Assembly (NCBI RefSeq): GCF_024228315.1
Contig: NZ_CP100454.1
Coordinates: forward strand, 3,162,001-3,226,000
DNA length: 64,000 nucleotides
Direction of reading: 5' to 3'
Source: Halomarina pelagica
GTDB lineage: Archaea; Halobacteriota; Halobacteria; Halobacteriales; Haloarculaceae
This document shows positions 3,012 through 3,762 of this stretch, piece by piece. How positions within the stretch are numbered: position 1 is the first letter of the stretch; every line of letters starts with the position of its first letter. The position numbers and the translations under genes are program-made. The notes beneath the pieces are model-generated. The model searched no databases. It was not told the origin of the DNA and saw only the letters and a program-made list of their open reading frames with translations.

Positions 3012-3635
3012 TTAGCCGGTCTGCACCTCCCCGCGCATCGACTCCGGGTGGTACTCGCAGTAGTAGGCCGCCTCGTCGCCCGTCGCCTCGTAGGTCATCG
3101 ACACCGTCGCGCCCTTCTCCGAGGCGGACTCTGACGCGGCGAGTTCCTCGCCGTTCGCGTCCTCGACGATGAGTTCGTGTTTCGCCCCGTCGAGGTTCTC
3201 CCAGACGATCTCGTAGACGGTCCCGGGGACGAGGGTGAGCGTGGGGTTCGTCTGCCCCTCGATGCTCGCCGGGGCCCGACCGATCCAGCCCGCGGTCTCG
3301 CCGCCCAGTCGAACCTGCTCGCCCGCGCCGCCGCCCGTCGCGTTAGTCTGGTTAGTCGCGTTCGTCTGATTGGTCTGATTGGTCTGATTGGTCGCGTTAG
3401 TGGCGTTAGTCGCGTTAGTGGCGTTGGTCTGGTTAGTCTGGTTAGTCGCGTTCGTCGCGTTCCCGGTCTGGTTGGTCGCGTTGGTTACGTTCGTCTGATT
3501 GGTCGCGTTGGTCTCGTTCCCACCGCCACCGCCGCCCGGACTCGCGCAGCCGGCGAGTCCGACGACCGCACCGGTGAGAACTGCACCGCCCGCCCTGAGG
3601 ACGCTCCGCCGATCGTACGTATCATCTCGTGTCAT
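3012..3635 (-). CDS. Halocyanin-like blue copper lipoprotein with Asn-Xaa-Thr linker
   Basis: 207 aa from the ATG at 3635. The N-terminus has a Tat-type motif (YDRRSVLRAGG), a hydrophobic stretch and a lipobox (GLAGC), so it should be exported folded and lipid-anchored. Residues about 40-105 are an extraordinary run of 20 consecutive N-X-T triplets. The C-terminal cupredoxin domain shows type I copper ligands: His in AKHELIV, then Cys, His and Met in YYCEYHPESM. Halocyanins shuttle electrons at the outer membrane face. The longer frame to 3761 adds an unlikely basic leader. Confidence 0.9.
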   Translation of the reverse strand: MTRDDTYDRRSVLRAGGAVLTGAVVGLAGCASPGGGGGGNETNATNQTNVTNATNQTGNATNATNQTNQTNATNATNATNATNQTNQTNQTNATNQTNATGGGAGEQVRLGGETAGWIGRAPASIEGQTNPTLTLVPGTVYEIVWENLDGAKHELIVEDANGEELAASESASEKGATVSMTYEATGDEAAYYCEYHPESMRGEVQTG

Positions 3636-3762
3636 ACGCTCAACTAGAATGGGAGCCTTCGGACGGAGATATACGTGGCGGCGCGCCGCGCGGGAGGGTG
3701 ACGGCGGGACCTCGCGGACCGTCGCCGTGCTGTCGGTTCCCGGGGCGACCGTGGAACGCACC

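Follow-up and report, generated by a model that had tools for sequence, protein, structure and literature searches.

The linker of a 207-residue lipoprotein encoded in our window, a 64,000-nucleotide stretch of the Halomarina pelagica genome, contains 20 N-X-T sequons within 61 residues, and comparable arrays occur in unrelated exported and membrane proteins of the same genome and genus. From the comparisons described below, we consider it probable that the linker carries N-glycans and forms a bristle to which a type-1 copper domain is tethered. The genome- and genus-wide pattern is a larger and more interesting result than the single protein.

A lipoprotein with a linker of sequons

The gene runs on the minus strand from an ATG at position 3635 to a stop codon at 3014..3012. 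Its product opens with MTRDDTYDRRSVLR and consists, in this order, of a twin-arginine signal, a lipobox, a glycine spacer, the sequons and a C-terminal domain (Table 1). The twin arginines and the lipobox cysteine, both identified by eye, mark the product as a predicted Tat-exported lipoprotein; the Pfam model TAT_signal scored 10.5 bits, below its cut-off of 22.7. An open reading frame on the opposite strand (3177-3647), which consists of Leu/Val/Ser repeats, was judged to be spurious. About 36 bases 5' of the ATG, a TATAT noticed by eye (3670-3675, minus strand) might be an archaeal TATA box, and a transcript from it would possibly be nearly leaderless; a scan for sigma-type promoters, whose coverage does not extend to archaeal promoters, gave no match.

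Table 1. Features of the copper lipoprotein gene (window coordinates) and proteins of the genome that carry sequon arrays.
Feature	Position	Strand	Details	Basis
Whole gene (predicted Tat lipoprotein; linker of sequons; cupredoxin domain)	3012..3635	minus	207 aa	
Putative signal peptide to lipobox	3546..3635	minus	R9-R10 (DRRSVLR); LAGC with Cys30 at 3548..3546	by eye
Array block 1	3465..3518	minus	six NxT sequons, residues 40-57	
Gly58	3462..3464	minus	single residue breaking the array	
Array block 2	3336..3461	minus	fourteen contiguous NxT sequons, residues 59-100	
Predicted cupredoxin (type-1 copper) domain	3015..3335	minus	residues 101-207; ligands His153, Cys193, His196, Met200	homologue alignment and profile
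Array locus, 207-aa copper lipoprotein			linker	
Array locus, plastocyanin-type lipoprotein			linker	
Array loci, CoxB (two)			C-tails	
Array locus, SecD			loop	
Array locus, NuoH			N-terminus	
Array locus, DUF4397 protein			48 sequons	
Array locus, trypsin/PDZ lipoprotein				
Array locus, nuclease lipoprotein				
Array locus, 97-residue lipoprotein			23 sequons	
Array locus, another lipoprotein				
Array loci, TM proteins (three)				

The array covers residues 40-100 (3518..3336, minus strand). An earlier note on this DNA had described twenty consecutive N-X-T sequons; the number is correct, but a lone glycine (3464..3462) divides them into a run of six and a run of fourteen. The units are 10 NAT, 8 NQT, one NET and one NVT, in agreement with the same note's account of a linker built from these triplets between the lipobox and the cupredoxin domain. 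Proline is found at X in none of the 20 sequons, the third position is threonine in all of them, and all 20 asparagines of the linker lie inside sequons. Within the window, the pattern (NxT)3 has 16 overlapping matches, every one in the array, and none appeared in 100 dinucleotide-preserving shuffles of the window. Shuffling the residues of the linker 5000 times gave 5.3 sequons on average and 11 at most, compared to the 20 observed.

At the DNA level, the asparagine and threonine codons of the array vary at position 3 in 15 of 40 cases and at positions 1 and 2 in none of 80 (p about 1e-8, assuming independence of the repeat units, which may not hold). Threonine is encoded by ACT in 7 of 20 cases and asparagine by AAT in 4 of 20, against 0.9% and 2.5%, respectively, in the reference genes of the window, and glutamine occupies X in 8 of the 20 units but in 0 of 187 in the arrays of 13 other proteins of this genome. 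Since its codons and X residues differ from those of the other 13 proteins, the array may have another origin, such as the acquisition of its gene from elsewhere; diversification of its codons may also be the cause. The GC content at third codon positions is 0.67 for residues 1-39, 0.80 for the array and 0.93 for the domain, possibly reflecting a foreign origin. Acidic residues are scarce, with 2 in the 77 residues of the linker segment tested, compared to 12-22 in the linkers of five homologues, and lysine and arginine are absent from the linker.

Assignment of the copper domain

The NCBIfam halocyanin model TIGR03102 scored 21.5 bits on the 207-residue protein, far under its cut-off of 93.8, which rules out a plain halocyanin label, and a Pfam scan of the protein yielded no family above cut-off. 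A profile built from 19 homologues matched a nitrite reductase in its cupredoxin domain (2dv6, 2.6e-6), plastocyanin (2plt, 7.6e-5) and also amicyanin. PF00127 was found in 18 of the 19 profile members but was absent from the isolated domain of the lipoprotein. The His, Cys, His and Met ligands of type-1 copper are invariant in all 19 aligned homologues. A single-sequence AlphaFold model (pLDDT 62, pTM 0.56) was too weak for use, and a Foldseek search with it gave no cupredoxin among the 50 matches listed. On the evidence of the profile and the ligands, we call the domain a predicted cupredoxin, not a halocyanin. The part of PMC12153357 considered here makes no mention of cupredoxins.

The protein shares with blue copper proteins of the halocyanin/plastocyanin type (TIGR03102, PF00127) the membrane tether, the small size, the His/Cys/His/Met ligands and the haloarchaeal origin. 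Unlike halocyanins, it has a C-x2-H-x3-M ligand loop and a linker of sequons, besides its low score to their model.

Homologues of the lipoprotein

Searches with the domain gave matches in 74 of 145 relatives. The closest full-length relatives are small lipoproteins from another family (G138, G132 and G112, with 66%, 61% and 60% identity). Among the eight genomes of the genus, the gene is located between the genes for EF-1 beta and L21e only in H. pelagica and its sister G004. The sister copy is broken: it has lost the reading frame, the lipobox cysteine and a portion of the domain, and its short linker has one sequon. A few of the assemblies compared have high contamination, with 11% in G004. 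The copy in G003 is located elsewhere in its genome and contains a stop. The gene is thus dispensable in the sister species and, with the G003 stop also considered, so is the protein.

Linker sequons number 7 in G138, 9 in G132, 3 in G003 and none in G112 and G001, showing that sequon content in the linkers of this family is prone to change. In G138 and G132 they exceed the counts in shuffles of the same linkers and have different X residues and both serine and threonine at the third position. The length of the array differs between species, each represented by one genome, from 20 sequons here to one in the broken sister copy, and among the copies seen, the intact version with 20 sites is particular to this species.

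Arrays in unrelated membrane and exported proteins

Across the genome, we counted 68 matches to (NxT)3, overlaps included, which fall at 15 loci, and none to the reversed pattern (TxN); as further controls, (DxT)3 gave 4 matches at 2 loci and (NxS)3 with TCN codons one match. At 14 of the 15 loci, the array lies in frame within an exported or membrane protein, unrelated to the others (Table 1); the fifteenth, L104, is without an open frame of at least 60 residues. Judged by signal peptide, known family topology and the charge around the transmembrane segment, the array is on the outward part in all 14 proteins.

In 14 segments of this genome, whose borders were set by eye, sequons exceeded those of composition shuffles in every case (p <= 0.002), and they did so in 6 of 7 segments of G004, the seventh being the broken copy (p = 0.13). 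As the segments were chosen for holding arrays, this comparison shows order over composition, not how frequent arrays are.

Two of these proteins deserve a description of their own. The mature chain of the 97-residue lipoprotein (L096:1997-2287) is almost entirely sequons and has no folded domain; it shows a weak similarity to DUF7537, under the cut-off. The DUF4397 Tat protein (L102:2400-3752, L237) has 48 sequons in the sister as well, arranged differently.

Residue exchange in sequon-dense segments

NuoH was identified in seven genomes of the genus, H. pelagica included, and its N-terminus contains 5-9 sequons in every one, which mix NAT, NAS, NSS and NGT. For 50 NuoH proteins of other genera, we counted no sequon in 42, one in four, two in two, three in one and eight in one. 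Second NuoH copies in G009, G090, G008, G013 and G027, and an incomplete copy in G098, are outside these counts. The highest numbers outside the genus were 8 in G089, which belongs to another family, 3 in G034 and 2 each in G015 and G033, and they weaken the notion of the NuoH array as a trait of the genus alone; the array of G089 looks like an independent gain. NuoH extensions with sequons were recorded at L100:1794-2963, L245-L251, L301 and L297; besides those of the genus, these include seemingly independent ones in a genome of another family and in genus g9.

The C-tail of CoxB likewise has 4-16 sequons in all seven genomes of the genus that were parsed, again with H. pelagica included; the main CoxB of G007 and the second-type tails of G001 and G003 were outside this comparison, in which segment borders were again set by eye. 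The tails are all NxT in H. pelagica (16), G004 (11) and G005 (12), and nearly all NxS, in a GNAS rhythm, in G006 (5), G001 (11), G002 (5) and G003 (4). In both the CoxB and the NuoH segments, sequons are kept while NAT changes to NAS and the spacing shifts. The retention of dense sequons through these changes is as predicted by selection for oligosaccharyltransferase sites, and not by slippage or mere low complexity. An origin of the arrays from chance low complexity rich in asparagine and threonine is ruled out by the reversed pattern, the shuffles and this turnover between NAT and NAS.

Distribution among haloarchaea and the oligosaccharyltransferase

The pattern (NxT)3 is present in 50 of the 145 relatives, with 68 matches in H. 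pelagica, 36 in G004, 13 in G118 and at most 8 in any of the others. In 391 haloarchaeal genomes sampled from the class, exclusive of G004, 44 had (NxT)4, and H. pelagica ranked first with 40 matches, followed by genomes with 16, 9, 8 and 6, the first of which has 10 in its own control. As matches overlap, these counts reflect the length of the arrays as well as their number. A scan of a genome collection with (NxT)7, whose listed matches were mostly bacterial and in any frame, was left unused. G118, an unrelated haloarchaeon, encodes a secreted repeat protein (L242:1116-2963) with 71 sequons and NAT/NGT runs of up to eight. A literature search, chiefly of open-access papers, found contiguous sequon arrays described neither for haloarchaea nor on respiratory and export proteins, which is weak evidence of their absence from the literature.

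The genome encodes the oligosaccharyltransferase AglB about 29 kb upstream of the window (G000:C1:3130030-3132654), with a WWDYG motif and a score of 837.7 bits to TIGR04154 (cut-off 450). AglB was found in 142 of the 145 relatives; being near-universal while long arrays are rare, its presence does not explain which genomes have arrays, and we rejected it as an explanation. The C-tail of AglB itself has 7 sequons in H. pelagica, without a run of three, and runs of three or more in G004 and G073. As recorded at L241 and L238, the tail is sequon-rich in this species, and the one of the sister contains a run of four.

According to the part of PMC8241124 considered here, CoxB1, SecD, AglB and several lipobox proteins of Haloferax volcanii bear AglB-dependent N-glycans, no N-glycopeptides were identified after deletion of aglB, and an N-glycan of this species contains uronic acids. 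AglB acts there as a member of the same oligosaccharyltransferase family, with the same N-X-S/T rule, as in H. pelagica, and three of our sequon-rich proteins (CoxB, SecD, AglB) fall in families that are proven substrates. The difference lies in density: Table 1 of that paper gives 1-5 mapped sites per protein, except for SLG with 6 and HVO_2160 with 19, whereas we find contiguous runs on tails and linkers, and sequon arrays are not described in the part considered (PMC8241124).

Alternative explanations

For the linker of the copper lipoprotein, we found sequons in 20 of 20 units, a predicted exported segment and an AglB in the same genome, as would be expected of an AglB substrate. Several observations nevertheless argue against a glycan bristle. 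Sequons placed back to back, three residues apart, may be filled poorly; a single-subunit oligosaccharyltransferase filled three closely spaced sequons to >95% in the part of PMC12796225 considered, but the enzyme in that case comes from a trypanosome and had three sites to fill. Some homologous linkers lack sequons altogether (G112, G001), the broken copy in G004 and the stop in G003 indicate that the protein is dispensable, and the codons and the glutamines at X set this array apart from the other 13. If any hydrophilic disorder may do, as the homologous linkers without sequons suggest, the linker could be a neutral polar spacer with asparagine and threonine for solubility and flexibility and no useful glycosylation. 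Linkers of Gly, Asp, Glu and Thr without sequons do occur at the same place in L003 and L027. We consider such a spacer unlikely, given the 68-to-0 bias of NxT over TxN, the confinement of every linker asparagine to a sequon, the failure of shuffled linkers ever to reach 20, and the persistence of sequons through NAT/NAS exchange in CoxB and NuoH.

The earlier note had proposed a heavily glycosylated stalk whose DNA can change length by slippage. The stalk is the best supported part of this proposal, by the sequon excess, the orientation, the recurrence of arrays, the NxT/NxS exchange and AglB, and remains a prediction from sequence; the slippage part found no support in the comparison of units at different lags. 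A short NxT seed could in principle have been expanded into the array, mainly by slippage or unequal crossing-over, to a length that is near neutral and may vary between strains, and Tandem Repeats Finder periods of 9, 18 and 54, the far shorter linker of the sister's decayed copy and the related codons of all units, many with ACT, would fit this. Yet the identity of adjacent units is 0.754, compared to 0.737 after shuffling (p = 0.32; p = 0.15 at lag 6). Neighboring units thus resemble each other no more than units farther apart do, which gives no indication that slippage occurred recently and argues against it as the main cause. The array is moreover imperfect in its DNA, with asparagine and threonine codons differing at silent positions only, similar arrays with other codons and X residues lie in frame at 14 exported places, and NuoH arrays seem to have arisen independently in other genera. 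Overall, we regard an origin mainly by slippage as improbable. Still less credible is that threonine, not asparagine, is the target, making the linker an O-glycosylated Thr-rich stalk. The stalks of haloarchaeal S-layer glycoproteins are O-glycosylated and Thr-rich, and the array offers 20 threonines; likely O-glycoproteins are also discussed in the part of the Hfx. volcanii glycoproteome paper considered (PMC8241124). O-glycosylation has no need of asparagine at -2, though, while the Asn-to-Thr spacing is conserved; NxT/NxS exchange would preserve O-sites as well, but leaves the constant asparagine unexplained.

A predicted glycan bristle and its implications

Under the preferred reading of an N-glycosylated bristle, AglB would modify many, probably not all, of the 20 linker sites after export, making the linker a stiff, extended and hydrophilic chain. 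This would keep the copper domain, as an electron carrier, at a distance from its lipid anchor and below the S-layer, perhaps so that it can reach partners or resist proteases in brine. Mucins extend by about 0.25 nm per residue, and a bristle of 60-70 residues might span 15-20 nm.

Mucin-like and other glycan-bristle stalks are disordered chains with dense attachment sites, stiffened by their sugars, and best known with O-glycans on serine and threonine. The linker resembles them as a densely lined disordered chain; its predicted glycans would be N-linked and its sites are contiguous. In archaea, N-glycosylation at many closely placed sites is a known property of S-layer proteins and of large secreted proteins. 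Engineered thioredoxin constructs, as given in the part of PMC12796225 considered, likewise have close sequons on a folded domain that are filled by a single-subunit oligosaccharyltransferase, but these are synthetic, with three sites and a trypanosome enzyme, whereas the present linker is natural and has twenty.

The linker is one of at least 14 arrays in the genome, which occupy outward-facing linkers, tails or loops in membrane proteins unrelated to one another, and in this lineage selection for the attachment of glycans probably accounts for both the gain and the retention of such segments. The pattern points to the evolution of sugar-coated tails and tethers on membrane proteins of this lineage. 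Halophile linkers are usually acidic. We speculate, by analogy with the uronic acids of an Hfx. volcanii N-glycan, that sugars could supply the charge absent from the linker. More tentatively, glycan bristles might occur genus-wide on the respiratory chain (NuoH, two CoxB, copper proteins), SecD, AglB and the small lipoprotein that is mostly sequons, forming a layer of charged sugars along the face of the membrane in place of acidic linkers, with selection keeping the sequons while their letters turn over from NAT to NAS.

If the arrays on respiratory and export proteins are real, they would be natural substrates for finding the smallest spacing at which an oligosaccharyltransferase works, and could serve directly as tethers in the glycoengineering of halophilic hosts. 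The acidity of halophile linkers would become testable as charge on protein versus charge on sugar, and the retention of sequons under changing letters would be an evolutionary signature that N-glycans on CoxB, NuoH and copper carriers matter.
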